From: Aureibaculum sp. 2308TA14-22
GTDB taxonomy: Bacteria; Bacteroidota; Bacteroidia; Flavobacteriales; Flavobacteriaceae
Direction of reading: 5' to 3'
Assembly: GCF_040538665.1 (NCBI RefSeq)
Contig: NZ_JBEWXT010000001.1
Span: 1,266,501 to 1,330,500 of the forward strand
DNA: 64,000 bases
The notes beneath the pieces were generated by a model, which worked only from the letters and a program-made list of their open reading frames with translations, was not told the origin of the DNA and did not search any database. Both the position numbers and the translations under genes were made by a program. This document shows, one piece after another, positions 41,913-53,544 of the stretch; within the stretch, counting starts at the first letter, position 1, and each line of letters starts with the position of its first letter.

Positions 41913-43214
41913 ATGAGAGAAACAAAAATAGCAATTATAGGTTTAGGTTATGTGGGTTTGCCGTTAGCCGTTGAGTTTGCTAAGAAATATCAGGTAGTAG
42001 GTTTTGATATCAACAACAAAAGAATAAAAGAGCTAAGAGAGAATAATGATTTTACATTAGAAACCTCTTCAGAAGAATTGGAAGACGTAAATGTTTCTTC
42101 ATTAGGAGATTTGAAAAGTTCGGATACAGGACTTTGGCTGACGGACAAATTATCGGATATTGAATTAGCCAATTTTTATGTAGTTACTGTTCCCACTCCT
42201 GTAGATAAAAGTAATAGACCAGATTTGACACCATTATATAAAGCAAGTGAAACTGTTGGTAATGTCCTGTCTAAAGGTGATGTAGTAGTTTACGAATCTA
42301 CAGTATTCCCTGGTGCCACTGAAGACGAATGTATTCCTATTTTAGAAAAAGTGTCAGGTTTAACCTATAATGAAGACTTTTATGCAGGTTATTCTCCCGA
42401 AAGAATAAACCCAGGAGATAAATTGCACACGGTAACCAAAATCTTAAAGGTTACTTCAGGTTCAACACCAGAAATTGCCGAATATATTGATGAAGTGTAC
42501 CAATCGGTTATTGTGGCAGGAACTCACTTGGCACCTTCTATAAAGGTAGCTGAGGCTGCTAAGGTTATTGAAAACTCGCAGCGTGATATCAATATTGCAT
42601 TTGTTAATGAATTGTCAAAAATATTCCGGTTGATGGGTATAGACACTTTAGAGGTTTTAGAAGCAGCTGGAACAAAATGGAATTTTTTACCGTTTAGACC
42701 AGGATTAGTAGGTGGGCATTGTATAGGTGTTGATCCTTATTATTTAGCTCAAAAAGCGATGGAATTGGGCTACAATCCTGAAATTATATTGGCTGGTAGA
42801 AGGTTAAATGACAGTATGGGACCCTTTGTAGCTCAAGAGTCCGTTAAAATGATGATAAAAGAAGGAATACCGATTAAAGGCTCAAACGTTTTGGTATTGG
42901 GTATTACGTTTAAAGAAGATTGCCCAGATATTAGAAATTCTAGAGCTATAGACATTGTTAGAGAATTGGAATCTTTTGAAGTTAATATAGATGTTTATGA
43001 CGCTTGGGCAACTGCTGAAGAAGTAAAACACGAATATGGAATCGATTTAATTTGTAATGAAAGTGATATTAAGAAAAAATATGACGGTGTGGTTATTGCT
43101 GTTTCTCATAAAGAATTTAAAACTTTAAATATTAAAGAGTTATGTGCTGATAATCATATTATTTTTGATGTAAAAGCAACATTACCAAAAGAAAAATCAC
43201 ATAGTAGATTGTAA
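41913..43214 (+). CDS. UDP-N-acetylhexosamine or UDP-glucose 6-dehydrogenase (WbpO/TviB-like)
   Basis: This 433-residue NAD-dependent enzyme oxidises C6 of a UDP-sugar twice to give a uronic acid. The N-terminal Rossmann motif is IIGLGYVGLPLAVEFAK. The catalytic Cys270 lies in GLVGGHCIGVDPYYL, and the C-terminal NAD-domain motif is LVLGITFKEDCPDIRNS. The pattern is closest, by eye, to the WbpO/TviB/VipA group acting on UDP-GlcNAc or UDP-GalNAc, though a UDP-glucose role is not excluded. It follows a 162-bp gap in which no feature was recognised, and the epimerase gene lies nine bases downstream. Confidence 0.9.
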   Translation: MRETKIAIIGLGYVGLPLAVEFAKKYQVVGFDINNKRIKELRENNDFTLETSSEELEDVNVSSLGDLKSSDTGLWLTDKLSDIELANFYVVTVPTPVDKSNRPDLTPLYKASETVGNVLSKGDVVVYESTVFPGATEDECIPILEKVSGLTYNEDFYAGYSPERINPGDKLHTVTKILKVTSGSTPEIAEYIDEVYQSVIVAGTHLAPSIKVAEAAKVIENSQRDINIAFVNELSKIFRLMGIDTLEVLEAAGTKWNFLPFRPGLVGGHCIGVDPYYLAQKAMELGYNPEIILAGRRLNDSMGPFVAQESVKMMIKEGIPIKGSNVLVLGITFKEDCPDIRNSRAIDIVRELESFEVNIDVYDAWATAEEVKHEYGIDLICNESDIKKKYDGVVIAVSHKEFKTLNIKELCADNHIIFDVKATLPKEKSHSRL

Positions 43215-43223
43215 ATAAAATTT

Positions 43224-44264
43224 ATGGAAAAGGTACTAGTAACAGGAGCGGCGGGATTCATTGGTTACCACTTATCAAAATTACTAACTAAAAATAATTA
43301 TCAAGTTATTGGTATTGATAATATTAACGATTATTACGATCAAAATTTAAAATACGCTAGGTTAGCCGATTTAGGAATAGAAAAGTCCAAAATTTCAGAC
43401 AACAACCCTGTTGAGGGTGATATTACTTTTATAAAATTAGATTTACAAGACAAACAAAACTTATTACAACTTTTTAAAGAAGAACAGTTTGACTATGTTG
43501 TAAACTTAGCTGCACAAGCGGGTGTACGGTATTCTATAGAAAATCCGCAAACATATATTGATAATAATATCACAGGCTTTTTAAATATTTTAGAAGGATG
43601 TAGAAATTATCCGGTCAAGCATTTAGTATATGCTTCGTCTAGTTCAGTGTATGGATTGAGCGAGGAAATTCCTTTTTCCGTTGATAGTCATACTGATCAC
43701 CCCATAGCCATTTATGCTGCAAGTAAAAAAGCGAATGAAATGATGGCTCATTCTTATTCACATTTATTTGGTATTCCTAGTACCGGATTACGTTTTTTTA
43801 CTGTTTATGGACCTATGGGAAGACCCGATATGGCGTTATATCTATTTACCAAAGCGATTGTAAATGATGAGGAATTTGATGTTTACAACTATGGTGATAT
43901 GAGCAGAGACTTTACTTATGTTGCAGATATTGTAGAGAGTATAAAGAGGTTAATCCCTTTGGCACCACAAAAAAATAACCCTAATTTTGATCCTAAAAAA
44001 CCAATACCATCTTCAAGCACGGCACCGTATCAACTCTTTAATATTGGAAATAATAGCCCTGTTCAGTTGATGGACTTTGTTAGAGGAATTGAAAAATCAT
44101 TGAATAAAAAAGGTAAGATTAATTTAAAACCCATTCAACCTGGTGATGTACCCGCTACATATGCAGATGTGCAGAGCCTGTTTGATTATATTGATTTTAA
44201 ACCGGCTACACCAATACAAGTAGGAATTGATGCTTTTGTGACAAAGTATTTGGAAATGAATTAG
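43224..44264 (+). CDS. NAD-dependent UDP-uronate 4-epimerase-like SDR
   Basis: The 346-residue extended-SDR enzyme has the TGAAGFIGYHL cofactor loop (7-17), the Ser-Ser-Ser-Val-Tyr region (SSSSVYG) and the catalytic Tyr164-x3-Lys168 (YAASK). The motif IDNINDYYDQNLKYARL resembles UDP-glucuronate 4-epimerases. It would convert UDP-GlcA to UDP-GalA, or the corresponding GlcNAcA/GalNAcA pair, which fits the upstream dehydrogenase. An N-acetylhexosamine 4-epimerase role is also possible. Confidence 0.88.
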   Translation: MEKVLVTGAAGFIGYHLSKLLTKNNYQVIGIDNINDYYDQNLKYARLADLGIEKSKISDNNPVEGDITFIKLDLQDKQNLLQLFKEEQFDYVVNLAAQAGVRYSIENPQTYIDNNITGFLNILEGCRNYPVKHLVYASSSSVYGLSEEIPFSVDSHTDHPIAIYAASKKANEMMAHSYSHLFGIPSTGLRFFTVYGPMGRPDMALYLFTKAIVNDEEFDVYNYGDMSRDFTYVADIVESIKRLIPLAPQKNNPNFDPKKPIPSSSTAPYQLFNIGNNSPVQLMDFVRGIEKSLNKKGKINLKPIQPGDVPATYADVQSLFDYIDFKPATPIQVGIDAFVTKYLEMN

Positions 44265-44556: not shown

Positions 44557-45609
44557 ATGAAAACAGTATCATTTTTTATTTGCAGTAATGGCTTTGGACA
44601 TTTTAAGCGATGTGCTCGAATTGCCTCTCATTTAGTCAGCCAGAATGATAAGGTAAAAATAAATTTTATTTGTCCGTCTAAACCATTGATAATTTTGGCG
44701 AAATGGAATGTTGTAACCTTTATTTTAAACCATCCAAGAATATGCATAATAGAAGGTGCTAGAAATATTGAACTATTAAAAGATGGTAAGTTTTATATAG
44801 AAAAGAACTATTTTAAAAATATAAATAATGAGATTACTAATTTATCTAATGTTATTATTTCAGACAATTTAAGTTCTATTTTGGAAATTAAGAATAATGC
44901 CATTTTAATGGGATCTTTCCTATGGTCAGAAATTTTAAAACACCAGTTTCCTAAAGACAGAAATATAGAGAAATTTCATGATAGCGAATTGGAAGTATTG
45001 AAGCGATATAATCCTGTTATGATAGGACTTAATGATATGGCGATGCCTTATGTAAAAAAATATACTGATTTTATAGGAACCTCGTGGATAGTTGATAAAA
45101 AACTAATGACGCCTAAAAGAGCTTCCGTAAAGAACATTTTGATAATGGGAGGGGGAACCGGCATAATTGATGACACCTTATTAAAAATGATTAATAAATT
45201 GCGTAAAAGTACCAATTATAGCATATTTGTTTCCAATCAATTATATAGAAATTTGGATGCAAAAAATGATAATTGTATACTTTTCGACTTTGATGAACAT
45301 AGTTTTTTAACAATTGATTTGATGATTTGCAGACCAGGAATAGGATCTTTGACAGATGCTATAACATACGGAATTCCTGTTTTTGGAATTGGAGAGCCAT
45401 CTAATTTTGAAATGGAATTTAATTTAAAGAAAATAGAAGAATTAAATTTCGGAATGGATATTTCCAATTTTAATAATGGTATAGATGAGCTTATTGAAAG
45501 TATTATTTTAAATGGTACTTATGCTTCATTTTGTAAATCGCTAGGACAAACAAATAAAAATGGAATACAAGAAATAATAGATTTCTTAACTTTAAAATAC
45601 AATTTATAA
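44557..45609 (+). CDS. MurG/GT28-like glycosyltransferase
   Basis: This 350-residue protein has the hallmark start SFFICSNGFGHFKRCARIASHL. A C-terminal acceptor/donor-binding segment (MICRPGIGSLTDAITYGIPVFGI) resembles GT-B-fold enzymes of the MurG and MJ1255-type groups. It probably transfers a nucleotide-activated sugar on the cytoplasmic side. Its gene abuts the next one without spacer, so it may belong to the acidic-sugar module and could attach the CMP-activated or UDP-uronate residue. The donor cannot be read from sequence. Confidence 0.8.
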   Translation: MKTVSFFICSNGFGHFKRCARIASHLVSQNDKVKINFICPSKPLIILAKWNVVTFILNHPRICIIEGARNIELLKDGKFYIEKNYFKNINNEITNLSNVIISDNLSSILEIKNNAILMGSFLWSEILKHQFPKDRNIEKFHDSELEVLKRYNPVMIGLNDMAMPYVKKYTDFIGTSWIVDKKLMTPKRASVKNILIMGGGTGIIDDTLLKMINKLRKSTNYSIFVSNQLYRNLDAKNDNCILFDFDEHSFLTIDLMICRPGIGSLTDAITYGIPVFGIGEPSNFEMEFNLKKIEELNFGMDISNFNNGIDELIESIILNGTYASFCKSLGQTNKNGIQEIIDFLTLKYNL

Positions 45610-47355
45610 ATGAATTATGATGTAAGCCAATATTTGATTTATGAAAATCAAACAATTAAAGATGTTTTGAAAATTTTTCAAAATACAGCAGACAGTGGTT
45701 TGCCAGCTGGAATTGCAATTTTATCGGACAAAAGTAATAAAGTCATAGGTTGCGTTACTGAAGGTGACGTAAGGAGAGGTTTAATTCAAGGTAAAAACCT
45801 AAATGATAAAATAGATGAAATTGCGGTAAAAAACCCAATTTGCTTTAATGAAAATTATTCGTATAAAGATATTATAGAAAAAATACCACAAGAATTAAGT
45901 TTACGGGGAAGAAAAAGTAAAAAGTATTTAGATAAAATCATTGTAACTAATAATGACAATGAACTGGTCAAGATTATTGGATACCATGAGTTATGGGAAC
46001 AGAAAGTGGCCACACATAGACATGTGGTCGTTTTAGGATTAGGATATGTGGGCTTAACCTTAGCCTTGGTATTGGCAGAAGAAGGCTTTTTTATAACGGG
46101 TGTGGATACGGATACTAACAAAATTAAAAAACTCAACAAAAAAGACTCTTATGTTATTGAAAAAGGACTTCCAGAAATTTTAAAGGAACAATTGGGCAAA
46201 AATTTCCATCCTTCCGTTACTATTCCAGAAGAGGGTGATGTATATGTTATCTCCGTGGGTACTCCTGTAGTGGTTGTGGGCTCAGATAAAAATCCAACAC
46301 CAATTTTAGATTTTATAGAAACTATTTCAAAAGAAGTTGGTAAAAAATTAAAGCCAGGAAATCTTGTCATTTTAAGATCAACAGTTCCTACGGGAACTTC
46401 AAGAAATGTTGTGGGACCCCTTTTAGAAAAACATTCTGGTTTAATTTGCGGTAAAGATTTTCATTTGGCTTTTGCACCTGAAAGAACTGCAGAAGGTAAA
46501 GCACTTAAAGAATTAAGAGAATTGCCACAAATTATTGGAGGTGTTAATGAAGAATCAGTAGAGTCAACTGCCGCATTGTTTAGAGAATTAACCCCGACAA
46601 TAATAAGGGTAAGTTCATTGGAAACGGCAGAAATGGCAAAATTGATTAACAATAGCTTCCGTGATCTAGTTTTTGCCTATTCAAACTACGTAACCCAAAT
46701 TGCCTCACATTTTAATATTGATATTGTTGAGATTATTAAGGCGGCAAATCAAGGATATCCTAGAGATACCGTACCTTTACCAAGCCCTGGGGTTGGCGGA
46801 CCTTGCTTAACCAAAGATCCATATATTTTTTCAACAGTAGCTGAAAAGGTATTAAACGGAAACACATCATTATTCAATGAAGGTCGCTATATCAATGAAA
46901 ACATGCACGAACATATTGCCATTAGAGTAATTAATGAATTGAAAAATCTTAAGAAAGATATAAAAAAGTGTAAAATTTTGGTATGTGGATTGGCGTTTAA
47001 GGGAAAACCCGAAACAGGCGATGTTAGAAATTCTTCGGCAGTAGAAATCTATAATTTATTGAGTAAATTGAGCACTAATATTTCAGGACATGACCCGGTT
47101 GCCTTAACCGATGAAATTAAAGAGGTTGGCGTAAACCCAATAGATTTTGAAAAAGGTATAAATGATGCCGATGTTGTTTTGTTTTTAAATAATAACGATT
47201 TTTACGAAAAGCTGAATATTTTTAACGTTGTAAGAAAAATGAACAAGAATCCGATTATTGTGGATGGTTGGAGTCTTTATCGGGCAGACGAAATTATTAG
47301 TGTTAAACCAAGTGTTTATATGAGTTTAAGCCAGATTAAAAGTTCAATAATATAG
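45610..47355 (+). CDS. CBS-domain fused to UDP-sugar 6-dehydrogenase
   Basis: The 581-residue protein begins with a CBS-domain pair (about 1-130). It includes VIGCVTEGDVRRGLIQGKN and a second unit around KIIGYHELW, and resembles the CBS module usually attached to sugar-1-phosphate nucleotidyltransferases. A complete UDP-sugar dehydrogenase follows from about 137: GLGYVGLTLALVLAEEG, a substrate region, the catalytic Cys399 in GVGGPCLTKDPY, and GLAFKGKPETGDVRNS. It resembles the UDP-ManNAc dehydrogenase group. It probably makes a second UDP-uronic acid, with activity possibly regulated by an adenine or CMP nucleotide bound to the CBS pair. Confidence 0.9.
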   Translation: MNYDVSQYLIYENQTIKDVLKIFQNTADSGLPAGIAILSDKSNKVIGCVTEGDVRRGLIQGKNLNDKIDEIAVKNPICFNENYSYKDIIEKIPQELSLRGRKSKKYLDKIIVTNNDNELVKIIGYHELWEQKVATHRHVVVLGLGYVGLTLALVLAEEGFFITGVDTDTNKIKKLNKKDSYVIEKGLPEILKEQLGKNFHPSVTIPEEGDVYVISVGTPVVVVGSDKNPTPILDFIETISKEVGKKLKPGNLVILRSTVPTGTSRNVVGPLLEKHSGLICGKDFHLAFAPERTAEGKALKELRELPQIIGGVNEESVESTAALFRELTPTIIRVSSLETAEMAKLINNSFRDLVFAYSNYVTQIASHFNIDIVEIIKAANQGYPRDTVPLPSPGVGGPCLTKDPYIFSTVAEKVLNGNTSLFNEGRYINENMHEHIAIRVINELKNLKKDIKKCKILVCGLAFKGKPETGDVRNSSAVEIYNLLSKLSTNISGHDPVALTDEIKEVGVNPIDFEKGINDADVVLFLNNNDFYEKLNIFNVVRKMNKNPIIVDGWSLYRADEIISVKPSVYMSLSQIKSSII

Positions 47356-47361
47356 TAGTTT

Positions 47362-48060
47362 ATGAAAATACTAGGTATAATACCGGCAAGAGGTGGCTCT
47401 AAAGGAGTTAAAAAAAAGAATATAAAACATTTAGGTAATAAACCACTATTGGTATATACCATTGAGGTTGCTGAGGCATCAGCATTGACGGATGTTATTG
47501 TCTCAACGGACGATGAGGAAATTGCAAAAGTGGCAAAAGAGTATGGAGGAAAAGTACCTTTTTTAAGACCTGAGGAGTTAGCAACGGATAATGCCAAGGC
47601 TATTCCCGTTATTCAACATGCATTGGTCGAAGCTGAAAAATTATACGGTAAAGAATATGATGCGGTAATGATGTTGCAACCTACAACGCCATTTAAAATC
47701 GTTGAAGATATTAACAATGCCATAGCGATTATGCAAAATTCAAATTGTGATAGCGTTATCAGTGTTGTAGATGTAGAAGGCCATCATCCAGCACGTATGA
47801 AGTTTATCGAAGATGACCGATTAATAGATCCACCGTATTGTGAAGCCTATGAAAATCAGCCAAGGCAAGAATTAGAACCTATGTATATTAGAAACGGAGC
47901 TGTTTATCTAACACGTAAAGAAATTTTAATGAATGATTCGTTTAAAGGAGAAGATTCGCGTGCGTTGATAATGCCCAATATCCGATCCGTAAATATTGAT
48001 ACCGAATTAGAATTTAAATATGCTGAATGGATTTTAAAAGAAAAGTTGATTAATGCTTAA
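47362..48060 (+). CDS. CMP-ulosonic acid synthetase (NeuA/PseF family)
   Basis: This 232-residue enzyme activates a 2-keto-3-deoxy sugar acid with CTP to give a CMP-sugar. The family start IIPARGGSKGVKKKNIK binds CTP. LQPTTPFK and EPMYIRNGAVYLTRKE are also typical of the NeuA/PseF/LegF group, as is DVIVSTDDEEIA. The length lacks any C-terminal esterase domain. It follows the CBS-dehydrogenase by six bases and overlaps the 2-hydroxyacid dehydrogenase gene by eight. Its substrate is probably the product of the NeuB-like enzyme encoded two genes later. Confidence 0.93.
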   Translation: MKILGIIPARGGSKGVKKKNIKHLGNKPLLVYTIEVAEASALTDVIVSTDDEEIAKVAKEYGGKVPFLRPEELATDNAKAIPVIQHALVEAEKLYGKEYDAVMMLQPTTPFKIVEDINNAIAIMQNSNCDSVISVVDVEGHHPARMKFIEDDRLIDPPYCEAYENQPRQELEPMYIRNGAVYLTRKEILMNDSFKGEDSRALIMPNIRSVNIDTELEFKYAEWILKEKLINA

Positions 48061-49015
48061 TATATTACATTTAGAAAAAGATTGTTATTCTCAAAGAACT
48101 TTGCAAAAAATTGAAGAGGTGGGACTTGTAAACTATTTGAATACAGAATCTCAAGTAGAATTTATAAATCATCTTGAAAATAACAAATACGATGTAATTT
48201 TTGCAAAACTGGGTTTGGCTATAAATAAGCAGGTAATAGATTTGTTACCAAGTTTAAAATGTATAGTTACACCAACTACGGGGCTCAATCATATAGATTT
48301 AAAAACGGCAGAAAAAAATAATATAGCCGTTATCAGCTTAAAAGGAGAAGTTGAGATTTTAAAAGAGGTAAGAAGTACCGCAGAGCATACATGGATGTTA
48401 TTGTTGAGCTTAATACGAAATCTACCAAGTGCCTTAGAAGACGTAAAACAAGGTGGATGGCAACGAAAGCCATTTTTGGCAGATGAACTTGACGGAAAAA
48501 CAATAGGAATTATAGGGTTTGGCAGATTAGGAAAAATTATAGCTTCTTATGCCTTGCCCTTCAACATGAAAGTATTGGCCACCGATACCGATAAAATGGC
48601 TTTTAATGACAAACCAGTACATATAAAAGAAGTGGGGTTAAAACAATTGCTTATAGAAAGTGATATTGTTAGCTTACATATTCCATCAAACGAAACCAAC
48701 AAAAATTTTCTTGATAGTGATAAATTCGAGTTAATGAAACAGGGTACGGTATTGATAAATACCGCTAGAGGTGAAGTAATAGATGAAAAAGCGTTGCTCT
48801 CGTCTTTAAAAAACAACAAGATAAAAGCCGCAGCTGTTGATGTATTAGACGACGATAGTATTTGGGAAGAAAAATCGCCCAAAAACCATGCTTTGATCCA
48901 ATATGCCCAGCAAAATTCTAATTTAATAATAACGCCACACATGGGCGGTTACGGACAAGTTTCTATAGAAAAAACTAGAGATTTTATTACAGATAAATTT
49001 ATAAATAATATTTAA
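48053..49015 (+). CDS. D-2-hydroxyacid dehydrogenase-family protein
   Basis: The 320-residue NAD-dependent enzyme has the Rossmann motif IGIIGFGRLGK (about 151-161), the catalytic Arg229 in INTARGEVID and His286 in ITPHMGGY. The position that usually holds the catalytic Glu appears to be Asp258 (AVDVLDDDS). Substrates of this family are 2-keto or 2-hydroxy acids, and ulosonic acids are 2-keto acids, so it may act on the module's sugar or on a small precursor. It is embedded between the CMP-synthetase and the NeuB-like synthase genes, overlapping the former by eight bases. Confidence 0.9.
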   Translation: MLNILHLEKDCYSQRTLQKIEEVGLVNYLNTESQVEFINHLENNKYDVIFAKLGLAINKQVIDLLPSLKCIVTPTTGLNHIDLKTAEKNNIAVISLKGEVEILKEVRSTAEHTWMLLLSLIRNLPSALEDVKQGGWQRKPFLADELDGKTIGIIGFGRLGKIIASYALPFNMKVLATDTDKMAFNDKPVHIKEVGLKQLLIESDIVSLHIPSNETNKNFLDSDKFELMKQGTVLINTARGEVIDEKALLSSLKNNKIKAAAVDVLDDDSIWEEKSPKNHALIQYAQQNSNLIITPHMGGYGQVSIEKTRDFITDKFINNI

Positions 49016-49035
49016 TTGATTTAAAAAATATTTAA

Positions 49036-49983
49036 ATGAAACCAATATTAATTGCAGAATGTTGTCAAAACCATAATGGCGACCAAGAAATATTAAAAAC
49101 AATGATTCATAAGGCTGCTGAAAATGGAGCGGATTATGTAAAAATTCAAGCGATTCGTTCAAAGGATTTAGCCTATAGAGAAAGATTTGAAGAGGGAAGT
49201 GTTGATAAAGACGGAACTATTACAACCATTAAAAGAGCCTATCAACCAGAATTAGAACGTTTGGCTAAACTAGACCTTACTTTAGAACAAGAATTATGGT
49301 TTGTTGAGGAGTGTAAAAAAGCGGGAGTTAAGCCCATGACCACCGTTTTTACACGTACAGCCATAGATGAAGTTAAAAATATGGGTTATGAAGCTATAAA
49401 AATTGCGAGTTACGATTGTGCTTCTTATCCGTTACTCGAAGATGTTAAAAAATTATGGAATAAGATTTTTGTTTCCACAGGATCTACTTATGACGATGAG
49501 ATTCAAAAAGCTGCACAAATATTAAAAGGTACTGATTTTGAATTTTTACATTGCGTAACCATTTATCCAACACCATTAGAAGAATTACATTTAAACAGAA
49601 TAAAATTTTTACAACAATTTACACCAAAAATTGGGTATAGTGATCATTCAAAGCCCGCTACTACAGATTTATGGGCATGTAAAGTAGCATTGGCATTAGG
49701 TGCAACCAATATTGAAAGACATTACACTGTTTTAGGCGTTACTGAAACAAAAGATGGTCCAGTTTCTATTACGCCACAAATGTTAAAAGAATTAAGGACT
49801 TTTGCAGATTACGACAATGAAAAACAATGGGATTTAATAAAAAGTGGGTTTCCAGAATGGGAAATGACCTTGGGTAATTCCCAAAGGCAATTATCGCATA
49901 CCGAAATATTAAACAGAGATTATTACAGAGGGCGTTTTGCCAATAAAATTGATGGAAAAACCATTTATAATTGGGAAGATTAA
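49036..49983 (+). CDS. NeuB-family ulosonate synthase without a SAF domain
   Basis: The 315-residue enzyme belongs to the sialic-acid synthase family that condenses phosphoenolpyruvate with a sugar aldehyde. Expected barrel motifs are present: AECCQNHNG (variant of the usual EIGxNHNG), VKIQAIRSKDL, IKIASYD, FVSTGSTYDDE, HCVTIYPTP, KIGYSDHSK and ERHYT. Classic NeuB proteins run to 340-350 residues with a C-terminal SAF (antifreeze-like) domain over the active site. Here the chain ends after about 20 residues (RDYYRGRFANKIDGKTIYNWED is the tail), so the SAF domain is absent. The acceptor sugar is unknown. Confidence 0.9.
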   Translation: MKPILIAECCQNHNGDQEILKTMIHKAAENGADYVKIQAIRSKDLAYRERFEEGSVDKDGTITTIKRAYQPELERLAKLDLTLEQELWFVEECKKAGVKPMTTVFTRTAIDEVKNMGYEAIKIASYDCASYPLLEDVKKLWNKIFVSTGSTYDDEIQKAAQILKGTDFEFLHCVTIYPTPLEELHLNRIKFLQQFTPKIGYSDHSKPATTDLWACKVALALGATNIERHYTVLGVTETKDGPVSITPQMLKELRTFADYDNEKQWDLIKSGFPEWEMTLGNSQRQLSHTEILNRDYYRGRFANKIDGKTIYNWED

Positions 49984-50017: not shown

Positions 50018-51517
50018 ATGAAAAAAGCCTTAAAAGACCTAACCAAAGATACTTTTACGTATGGTTTTGCCAGTTTCCTAGGGCAGATTATAGGCTTTTT
50101 ATTGTTACCTATTTATACAACACATCTTTCAACCAAAGACTATGGAATAATGGCTATGCTTACCTTTATTAGTCTTTTTTTTGCTCCTTTAGCCAATATG
50201 GGGGTAACCAATGCTATTTTTAGACGTTTTAATTTGCATAAAGATGAGTTTTTACAAATTAAATCACTGTCTGTTGGTAGTATTTTTGTAGTATTTACTT
50301 CCTTAGCATGGTTTATAGCCGGTTTCATGTTTTCGAAAGAACTTACATTGCTTTTGGTTGACGAAATTAAATATGAACCACTTGTTAAACTCTGCTTAGT
50401 GACCTCATTTTTTGTAAGTGTAGGGCAAATATTTACGGTGGTTTTGAGGGCACAACGTAGGGTAATGCAAATTTCCATTGTTAAAGTAATTCAATTATTG
50501 ATAACCGTTGGGTGTACTATTTATTTTGTAGTAGTGTTGTTAAAAGGAGTAGAAGGTATTATATTAGGTACTCTAATAGGTAGTGTATTTGCTTTTTTAA
50601 TTCAATACATATTATGTTTTAAATGGTTTAAGTTTAGTACAGATTTTATGGAACTCAAAGCTTTATTAAAATATGGATTACCGTTTTTACCGCATAGACT
50701 GATGGCATTTGGCTCAGGCTTTTTAAGTCAATTCTTTATTAAGGAATTTATTGGTTTGTCAGAAACAGGATTGTACAATATAGCATTGCGGTTTGCCCTG
50801 CCCTTAGCTTTTATCATTGGTTCCATACAATCTGCATGGGTACCCATAAAGTTTCAAGTACATAGAGAGGAAGGCGAAAACAGTGCTTTGATATTTAGGC
50901 AATTAATTTCGTTTTACTTTATAATACTATTATTACTATTTGCTGGGAGTATAACTTTTGGTCCTGAATTATTAAGGGTTATGACCGCCTCTGAATATCA
51001 TGCTGCGGTTTATTTAGTACCTTTTGTGTTGTTAATACCTGTGAGTCAAGGTATTTATTTTATGTTGGGTACAGGTTTTGAATTTACAGAAAACACAAAG
51101 CCAATGCCTCTTGTTAGTGGCTCTGGCTTATTGGTATTGTCAGTACTGGGTTATTTTCTGATTGATGTAGTAGGTATTTACGGGGTTGTTTTCGGATTAA
51201 TAGCATCTTGGTTAACTATGGCAATTTTAATTCGGTACTTCTCAAATCAACGCTTTTATGTACCTATCAATTTTAAACTTATTTTAAAAATAGTAATTCT
51301 GTTTTTACTACTAGTTGGTGTTATATTTTCAATTCAATCACTATCATTGATACCTAGATTATCAATTGAAAGTTTAACAATATTAGCAATATTAGCAATA
51401 TTTGTTTATTTTATTGTTTTTAATGAAGACCTAAGAACATTAAATATTCAAAAGTACCCCTTATTTAACAAACTAAATAAGTTCATACTACCCATTAGAA
51501 ATCTGGTAAAAAAATAA
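50018..51517 (+). CDS. wzx: O-unit flippase (Wzx-like, MOP superfamily)
   Basis: This 499-residue polytopic membrane protein has about 12-14 hydrophobic segments and starts with the family signature DTFTYGFASFLGQIIGFLLLPIYT. It should flip the lipid-linked repeat unit across the inner membrane. It lies 34 bases after the NeuB-like gene. Together with the polymerase gene at 59235 it marks a Wzx/Wzy-dependent pathway. Confidence 0.93.
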   Translation: MKKALKDLTKDTFTYGFASFLGQIIGFLLLPIYTTHLSTKDYGIMAMLTFISLFFAPLANMGVTNAIFRRFNLHKDEFLQIKSLSVGSIFVVFTSLAWFIAGFMFSKELTLLLVDEIKYEPLVKLCLVTSFFVSVGQIFTVVLRAQRRVMQISIVKVIQLLITVGCTIYFVVVLLKGVEGIILGTLIGSVFAFLIQYILCFKWFKFSTDFMELKALLKYGLPFLPHRLMAFGSGFLSQFFIKEFIGLSETGLYNIALRFALPLAFIIGSIQSAWVPIKFQVHREEGENSALIFRQLISFYFIILLLLFAGSITFGPELLRVMTASEYHAAVYLVPFVLLIPVSQGIYFMLGTGFEFTENTKPMPLVSGSGLLVLSVLGYFLIDVVGIYGVVFGLIASWLTMAILIRYFSNQRFYVPINFKLILKIVILFLLLVGVIFSIQSLSLIPRLSIESLTILAILAIFVYFIVFNEDLRTLNIQKYPLFNKLNKFILPIRNLVKK

Positions 51518-52107: not shown

Positions 52108-53544
52108 ATGAGAATTGATTTACAAAATTGGATTGACCATTGCATAAACACTTTAATAGCCAATTTTAAAGATAATGATGATGCAACAATGCTCATTAAG
52201 TGTTTTGTAACCCAGTATGAACTCAATGCCCTAAGAATAATTGAAAATAAAGCTAAATTTAACGAGAATTATAATTTACATTATTACAAGCAAAAGATTA
52301 AAAATAGTGTTATAAAAAAAGAGGTGAAAGAAGTAGCGTTTTCTGGATTTGATGATAAATTGGACATATTGTTTTGGCCATTTCAAAAATCACATTTCGA
52401 TGTTCAGATAAAAATTTATAATCAATTACAAAATATCAAATTGTCAACAGCCATAGTTTCTCATAACCATCCAGTTAATAGTTTAATAAATTCTCAGATT
52501 GTAAATGGTGGTATAGTTATAAATAACTTAGACCATGTTTGGGTCGATTATAAAAAAATAGCATGTTATAAAGAATTAATCAGCTCTATAAATAACCTTC
52601 CTAATTTTGCATATAACAATAAATCAATTCGTTTTAAAACGCTTTTTTTGAGAAGTTTAAACGCTTGGTATTGGCTTTATGTACAGACCACAGCCATTTT
52701 TAACAAAATGGTAAGCACCTATAAACCAAGGGTAATATTTGTAGGAAACAGTATTTCATTAGTGGGTAATTTAATAGGTCATTTAGCCCAAAAAAAACAA
52801 ATAAAAGCATGCTGTATTATGCACGGCAGAATGAACGATTATGTGCAATTTGGCTGTTTTGATTATTTTTATGTGTTTGGTAAAAATGATAAAAACAATA
52901 TGATCAACAATGGCATTTCAGAAGAAAAAATTATAATATCTGGATCGCCTAAAATTGATGAGTTTTTAAAAACAAACAAAAATTCACCAAAAAAATCATC
53001 TAAATATGTTTTAATTGCCTTGTCAGGCTCTGGTCATTCAATAACTGAAAAGCACCATATAGCAATCTTAGAAATGATTTATCAAGTGGCCGCACAATTG
53101 GACGCTATAAATTTTAAATTCAAATTACATAGAAAAGATAAAATTGAATATTATAAAAAACTAGACACGTTAAAGAATACTTCAATTTATAAGTACGGAG
53201 ATGCTTCGGTTTCTTCAAATATTTATGATTGGATAAAAGATGCCAATATGCTAATTACCGGAGCTTCAACTACGGCGTTAGATGCAATGTTATTAAATTG
53301 TGCCGTAATAACCATTGATTTATTTGAACACTTAAAAAATGTTGATTTTATAGAACAAAACGTATCTTTGCATTCCACCAACATTGAGCAATTATTAGTT
53401 AATATTAATATTGTTTTGGAACAGGGCGAGATACTTAAAAATCATATAGAAACCATAAACGGTTTTATAAAAGGATATTATGCTCAACCCGAAGTGGGAA
53501 GCTTAACGCTAATAGAAAACCATATTAAGTCTATTTTAAAGTGA
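52108..53544 (+). CDS. putative GT-B-fold surface polysaccharide transferase
   Basis: I do not recognise this 478-residue protein with certainty. The first half is helical, and the middle contains a Rossmann-like VIFVGNSISLVGNLIGHLAQ followed by CCIMHGRMNDYVQFG. The last part has KIIISGSPKIDEFL and the motif DANMLITGASTTALDAMLL, which resembles CDP-glycerol transferases and capsule GT-B enzymes. It is probably a glycosyltransferase or phosphotransferase of the repeat unit. It overlaps the next gene by four bases (GTGA), between two acetyltransferase genes. Confidence 0.65.
   Translation: MRIDLQNWIDHCINTLIANFKDNDDATMLIKCFVTQYELNALRIIENKAKFNENYNLHYYKQKIKNSVIKKEVKEVAFSGFDDKLDILFWPFQKSHFDVQIKIYNQLQNIKLSTAIVSHNHPVNSLINSQIVNGGIVINNLDHVWVDYKKIACYKELISSINNLPNFAYNNKSIRFKTLFLRSLNAWYWLYVQTTAIFNKMVSTYKPRVIFVGNSISLVGNLIGHLAQKKQIKACCIMHGRMNDYVQFGCFDYFYVFGKNDKNNMINNGISEEKIIISGSPKIDEFLKTNKNSPKKSSKYVLIALSGSGHSITEKHHIAILEMIYQVAAQLDAINFKFKLHRKDKIEYYKKLDTLKNTSIYKYGDASVSSNIYDWIKDANMLITGASTTALDAMLLNCAVITIDLFEHLKNVDFIEQNVSLHSTNIEQLLVNINIVLEQGEILKNHIETINGFIKGYYAQPEVGSLTLIENHIKSILK

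Follow-up and report, generated by a model that had tools for sequence, protein, structure and literature searches.

A conserved five-gene module in Aureibaculum sp. 2308TA14-22 that may direct synthesis of a CMP-activated nonulosaric acid

In the NeuC-NeuB-NeuA pathway a sugar is released hydrolytically from a UDP-sugar, condensed with phosphoenolpyruvate (PEP) by a NeuB-family synthase and activated with CMP. Here, we describe five genes that share this outline in a 64,000-nucleotide stretch of the Aureibaculum sp. 2308TA14-22 genome (hereafter the window). The genes, named H, D, C, A and N, encode a GT-B protein (44557..45609), a fusion of a CBS domain with an NDP-sugar 6-dehydrogenase (45610..47355), a CMP-ulosonate cytidylyltransferase (47362..48060), a D-2-hydroxyacid dehydrogenase (48053..49015) and a NeuB-like synthase (49036..49983). 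All five open reading frames (ORFs) lie on the forward strand where the original prediction, made from the DNA sequence alone, had placed them. The gaps between them (0, 6, -8 and 20 bp) indicate an operon-like run. Unlike NeuC-NeuB-NeuA, the module has no NeuC, combines an NDP-sugar 6-dehydrogenase with a putative hydrolase of another type, uses a synthase without a SAF domain and is predicted to yield a carboxylate at C9. We consider it rather likely that the product of these genes is a CMP-activated nonulosaric acid; that is, a nine-carbon, sialic-acid-like sugar with carboxylates at both C1 and C9.

Three further systems bear comparison. The pseudaminic (Pse) and legionaminic (Leg) acid pathways also have a GT-B hydrolase step (PseG), a PseF-like cytidylyltransferase and a related CBS domain, found in PtmE-type CBS-nucleotidyltransferases. 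However, the module has no PseB/C/G or LegB/C/G set, its CBS domain is attached to a sugar dehydrogenase rather than a nucleotidyltransferase, and H falls outside the PseG family. The Bacteroides pathway for the sialic acid Kdn (BT1713-BT1715), in which Kdn-9-P synthase acts on mannose 6-phosphate (Man-6-P), resembles the module in needing no epimerase, and in having a NeuB-family synthase with a manno-substrate and a CMP-synthetase. It differs in that our module has a dehydrogenase and a putative hydrolase as regular partners and, in the window, no phosphatase. Finally, a direct homologue of the alginate GDP-mannose 6-dehydrogenase, AlgD, replaces D in two related loci (L058 and L079). In the alginate system GDP-mannuronate (GDP-ManA) is polymerised; in these two loci the neighbours are H, N and C. 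The pathway logic appears not to have been described previously. In the open-access literature, we found no paper that applies the term 'nonulosaric' or 'ulosaric acid' to bacteria, nor one on such a module.

We propose the following route. The dehydrogenase D would oxidise C6 of an NDP-sugar, giving an NDP-hexuronate. In the window, the substrate is probably UDP-N-acetylmannosamine (UDP-ManNAc) and the product the corresponding uronate, UDP-ManNAcA; loci with an AlgD-type enzyme would convert GDP-mannose to GDP-ManA. Next, H would act as a GT-B hydrolase, analogous to NeuC and PseG, and free the hexuronate. At other loci a Nudix-like hydrolase, usually together with a HAD phosphatase, would free it in two steps. 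N would join the free hexuronate to PEP, and C would activate the product with CMP, ready for addition to a surface polysaccharide. NeuB chemistry would convert ManNAcA to the 9-oic acid of N-acetylneuraminic acid (Neu5Ac-9-oic acid), and ManA to Kdn-9-oic acid; these are our candidate products. The direct observations are the gene families, their conservation and linkage, the mutual exclusivity of H and the Nudix-like protein, the exchange of D for a GDP-mannose dehydrogenase, the loss of the SAF domain and the new invariant basic residues of N.

To measure linkage we used 52 N loci: 50 obtained by scanning a genome collection with N, the window itself and one additional locus (L099). The loci come from about a dozen phyla, including Bacteroidota, Myxococcota, Actinomycetota, Cyanobacteriota (Prochlorococcus), Pseudomonadota, Planctomycetota, Nitrospirota, Spirochaetota, Campylobacterota and Armatimonadota; Saprospiraceae are also represented, as are many phyla without cultured members. 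Close to home N is rare. It was found in one of 299 other genomes of the window's family (52% identity), the remaining matches being NeuBs of 26-37% identity, and in one of ~395 other genomes of the phylum. Of the 52 loci, 30 have H, 8 have the Nudix-like protein and none has both. The CBS-dehydrogenase fusion was detected in 33. Those loci that have D with neither H nor the Nudix-like protein (L035, L037, L040, L041 and L047) end at a contig edge near D. As controls, we took 20 loci of ordinary, SAF-containing NeuBs within the window's family. None contained H, the Nudix-like protein, the HAD phosphatase or the fusion. Fisher p values for the comparison were 4e-9 (H or Nudix-like) and 3e-7 (fusion); since the loci are related, these are descriptive. 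The five-gene order H-D-C-A-N, which the original prediction proposed to seek elsewhere, recurs in many Bacteroidota. A second group, including Prochlorococcus and L099, has the order C-(A)-N-D-H, and D-H-N is found elsewhere. A third group has HAD-D-Nudix-N-methyltransferases-C.

H was originally described as a GT28-like transferase. Its match to MurG is weak (TIGR01133, 22.2 bits against a cut-off of 250). H has no match to PF03033, PF04101 or any other Pfam family and we do not assign it to the MurG/GT28 group. The GT-B fold (MurG/UGT-like) is upheld by an AlphaFold2 model (pLDDT 89), which matched hundreds of GT-B structures. Assignment to PseG was also rejected, there being no TIGR03590 match and an hhalign probability of 14%. 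A 24-row alignment of the H family contains the motifs NGxGHxRR, SDN and RPGxG. In most typed loci H adjoins D; in others, the Nudix-like protein stands in for H, and a HAD phosphatase is usually found in the same locus. The Nudix-like protein carries an R-E-L-F-E-E (RExxEE) box, with preceding G and E, and the box is invariant in all 8 examples. Its AlphaFold2 model (pLDDT 89) mostly matched Nudix folds, including NUDT17, MutT and NUDT22, with TM-scores of ~0.2-0.4 by query length. Because these scores are low we refer to the protein as Nudix-like and not as Nudix. On the N tree, no fewer than three changes, on branches with good support, are needed to explain the Nudix label. Hence, the exchange between H and the Nudix-like protein (with HAD) has taken place repeatedly. 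A Nudix enzyme with a phosphatase can free a nucleotide-bound sugar, yet cannot replace a glycosyltransferase. It is mainly for this reason that we read H as most likely a hydrolase, and propose an NDP-hexuronate as its substrate.

The synthase N is the only PF03102 protein encoded by its genome. The TIM-barrel domain scores 168 bits (gathering score 22.1) and N falls below the canonical NeuB and PseI equivalogs (162.6 against 399.65 and 132.5 against 340.25 bits). A SAF-type C-terminus is present in all 27 NeuBs of the family that we aligned and is absent from N. The catalytic set E8, K36, Q38, K122, Y177, H204, E227, H229 and D240 is kept in both N and SAF-type NeuBs; the metal- and PEP-binding counterparts in Neisseria meningitidis are E25, K53, Q55, K129, Y186, H215, E234, H236 and D247. 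At substrate-contacting positions N differs from NeuBs, with T175 in place of N. meningitidis Asn184. In NeuB, the N-acetyl group of ManNAc is held in position by Arg314 of the SAF domain (PMC6795526). As it lacks the domain, N has no equivalent of Arg314. A family-specific loop of N has invariant residues R48, K66, R67 and R75, and these extra basic side chains would fit a second carboxylate on the substrate, as expected of an enzyme that condenses a hexuronate with PEP. Members of the N family form a distinct clade. Full-length examples are short, SAF-less proteins of about 313-370 residues as called.

D consists of the CBS domain and three UDPG_MGDP_dh domains, and scores 336.7 bits with the nucleotide-sugar 6-dehydrogenase model TIGR03026 (cut-off 189.8). 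The nearest PDB relatives are Cap5O (186 bits) and UDP-ManNAcA dehydrogenase (184 bits); UDP-glucose and GDP-mannose dehydrogenases score ~100. We therefore propose that D is a UDP-HexNAc 6-dehydrogenase, acting on UDP-ManNAc or the N-acetylglucosamine (GlcNAc) equivalent. The AlgD homologues that replace D lie ahead of H-N-C and match 1mfz with 402 (L058) and 555 bits (L079), the next best scores being 222 and 249. The two loci form one clade in the N tree (support 100/99). Elsewhere, a ManC-like gene sits between HAD and N (L047). Searches with the CBS domain of D also recovered the CBS portion of CBS-nucleotidyltransferases beside control NeuBs. Such CBS matches occur in 15 of the 20 control loci, and one inspected closely was a CBS-fused nucleotidyltransferase (L117:9032-10081). 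A shared regulatory role for the CBS domain across nonulosonic acid (NulO) loci is possible.

The remaining two genes are less distinctive. C contains CTP_transf_3 (PF02348) and is PseF-like (TIGR03584, 154 bits, below the cut-off of 205.7). A is a PGDH-like D-isomer 2-hydroxyacid dehydrogenase (PF02826/PF00389), found in 29 of the 52 N loci and often encoded directly beside C. The domain assignments thus agree with the original prediction for C, A, the CBS-dehydrogenase fusion and the SAF-less NeuB. The predicted product is an alpha-hydroxy acid at C8-C9, which is a natural type of substrate for A.

We searched the Aureibaculum genome (3.57 Mb, 99.7% complete) for standard precursor genes. 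The best match to NeuC scored 76 bits (cut-off 235.9) and there was no match to PseG (TIGR03590). For PseB, no protein exceeded the cut-off; a WbpM/PseB-like dehydratase encoded past the window end scored 217 bits. For legionaminic acid, no NeuC/LegG-type epimerase exceeded the cut-off in the genome; LegB and LegC were not searched separately. A search with PF02350 recovered an intact gene (L088:4817-5899) that scores, at 290 bits and over the cut-off, as a non-hydrolysing WecB. A second wecB-like gene, ~4 kb past the window end, is frameshifted into ORFs of 225 and 129 residues (L087:4430-5510; G000:C1:1334430-1335510), which may reflect genuine gene decay or an error in sequencing. Both are of the non-hydrolysing type and so would not supply free ManNAc; the intact WecB could be the source of UDP-ManNAc for the module. 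WecB was rejected as a conserved partner because, apart from NeuC-type genes, no homologue occurs near other N loci. Further past the window end are genes for an MraY/WbpL-like transferase, a DegT aminotransferase and a long WbpM/FlaA1-like dehydratase (L087:6811-9930; the last two ~6-8 kb beyond the end). These probably provide the sugar that starts the polysaccharide of this locus. A full NeuC, Pse or Leg set, which the original prediction named among the findings that would be fatal to it, is found nowhere else in the genome. Hence, there is good support for a non-standard ulosonate module, both from conservation across phyla and from the genome. The claim that precursor genes are missing holds only for the usual ones: D and H are most likely the module's own, unusual, precursor genes.

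Several points weigh against the synthesis of a nonulosaric acid. By fold H resembles glycosyltransferases, and a GT-B fold alone would not tell a hydrolase from a transferase. Its similarity to PseG is negligible. The Nudix-like protein matched no Pfam or NCBIfam family and, as noted, its fold matches have low TM-scores. In an Elusimicrobia genome a 396-residue protein without a family match is encoded directly before N, in place of H (L060:8809-9999); it may be a third release enzyme. Many N loci are fragments of metagenome assemblies. The Acidimicrobia loci have H-C-A-N but, in their incomplete assemblies, no CBS-dehydrogenase and only generic relatives. At L081, N is beside a true NeuC and there is no dehydrogenase, so ordinary sialic acid may be the product of some N-family enzymes. 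NeuC yields ManNAc, and what the N substrates would seem to share is a manno-configured aldehyde, which most loci would oxidise at C6. At L127:8054-11873, a SAF-NeuB, NeuC, CMP-synthetase and A are encoded in one run with no sugar dehydrogenase. Thus, A serves a NeuC-type pathway too, and a C9 carboxylate alone cannot account for it. Since A is also missing from many N loci, we dropped the idea that it is essential and acts on the C8-OH/C9-COOH end; A would be an optional tailoring enzyme. Lastly, the reactions themselves, the sugar stereochemistry and the product are deduced from sequence and gene context.

Alternatively, N and C could make an ordinary NulO: Kdn, with mannose or Man-6-P as the precursor, or Neu5Ac, with ManNAc. 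D would then produce a separate UDP-uronate, added to the same polysaccharide by H as a true glycosyltransferase. The fold of H, the NeuC at L081 and the presence of a HAD phosphatase or ManC at some N loci are all compatible with this. Furthermore, BT1714 and Prymnesium make Kdn from Man-6-P without an epimerase (PMC6200933). Conversely, D and H track N across phyla while other glycosyltransferases and flippases vary, and no association with D or H is seen at control NulO loci. Exchange of H for a Nudix-like hydrolase (with HAD) is not a substitution open to a glycosyltransferase. Moreover, NeuC is absent from the genome, as is a phosphatase from the window module. We regard an ordinary NulO as unlikely, though a serious contender. 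The same evidence bears on the Kdn-type route from a phosphorylated sugar suggested by the original prediction, which accounts for neither the dehydrogenase nor the exchange between GT-B and Nudix-HAD, and which we do not favour.

The DegT aminotransferase and the WbpM-like dehydratase past the window end, the latter with its 217-bit score to PseB, raise the idea that H is a PseG-like hydrolase of a UDP-diamino sugar, and that the product of N is legionaminic- or pseudaminic-like. H and PseG also have a G-x-G-H-x-x-R motif in common. We think this very improbable: elsewhere the conserved partner of H and N is an NDP-sugar dehydrogenase, and the genome has neither PseG nor NeuC/LegG and no PseB that reaches the cut-off. 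In addition, the dehydratase is of the long membrane form typical of QuiNAc/FucNAc synthesis. Least probable is synthesis of a Kdo-like acid, or of another ulosonate of unspecified chain length, in which A would provide an unusual keto- or hydroxyacid partner. The activity of A, and the frequent adjacency of its gene to C, would suit such a scheme. Conversely, A is missing from many otherwise complete loci and N keeps the PEP-binding residues of NeuB.

For nonulosaric acids as a wider class, we see roughly even chances that they are widespread, unrecognised bacterial surface sugars, made by a dehydrogenase-first route with two interchangeable, non-homologous modes of hexuronic acid release. 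If so, the sialic acid family gains a doubly charged branch, and a rule readable from genomes: a SAF-less NeuB whose neighbours are a CBS-dehydrogenase and a hydrolase of either GT-B or Nudix type. Generic models place such synthases in the sialic acid synthase family, and predictions, or lectin or 1,2-diamino-4,5-methylenedioxybenzene (DMB) assays, may be mislabelled. The enzymes would also serve for making new sialic acid analogues. Two Prochlorococcus single-cell genomes (L057 and L074) carry an N-D-H module, and its sugar may occur on abundant marine cyanobacteria.

The module sits within a polysaccharide locus; the features given here with window coordinates are all on the forward strand. 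Upstream are a Wzc-like gene, a second, TviB-like UDP-GlcNAc 6-dehydrogenase (41913..43214; NF011729, 583 bits, cut-off 592) and an NAD-dependent epimerase (43224..44264; PF01370) that is a possible TviC-like partner of the latter; both enzymes are outside the conserved module. Downstream are a Wzx-type flippase (50018..51517; PF13440/PF01943) and more glycan genes. Among these, a weakly TIGR04396-like protein (52108..53544) is a candidate transferase for the CMP-sugar. Its relatives are present in 20 N loci, several immediately downstream of N. In Acidimicrobia (L050, L052 and L078), a conserved H-C-A cluster faces N, beside a fixed set of unidentified genes. N and A are split into several frames at L078, and at L050 an ammonium transporter gene adjoins the H-C-A cluster.

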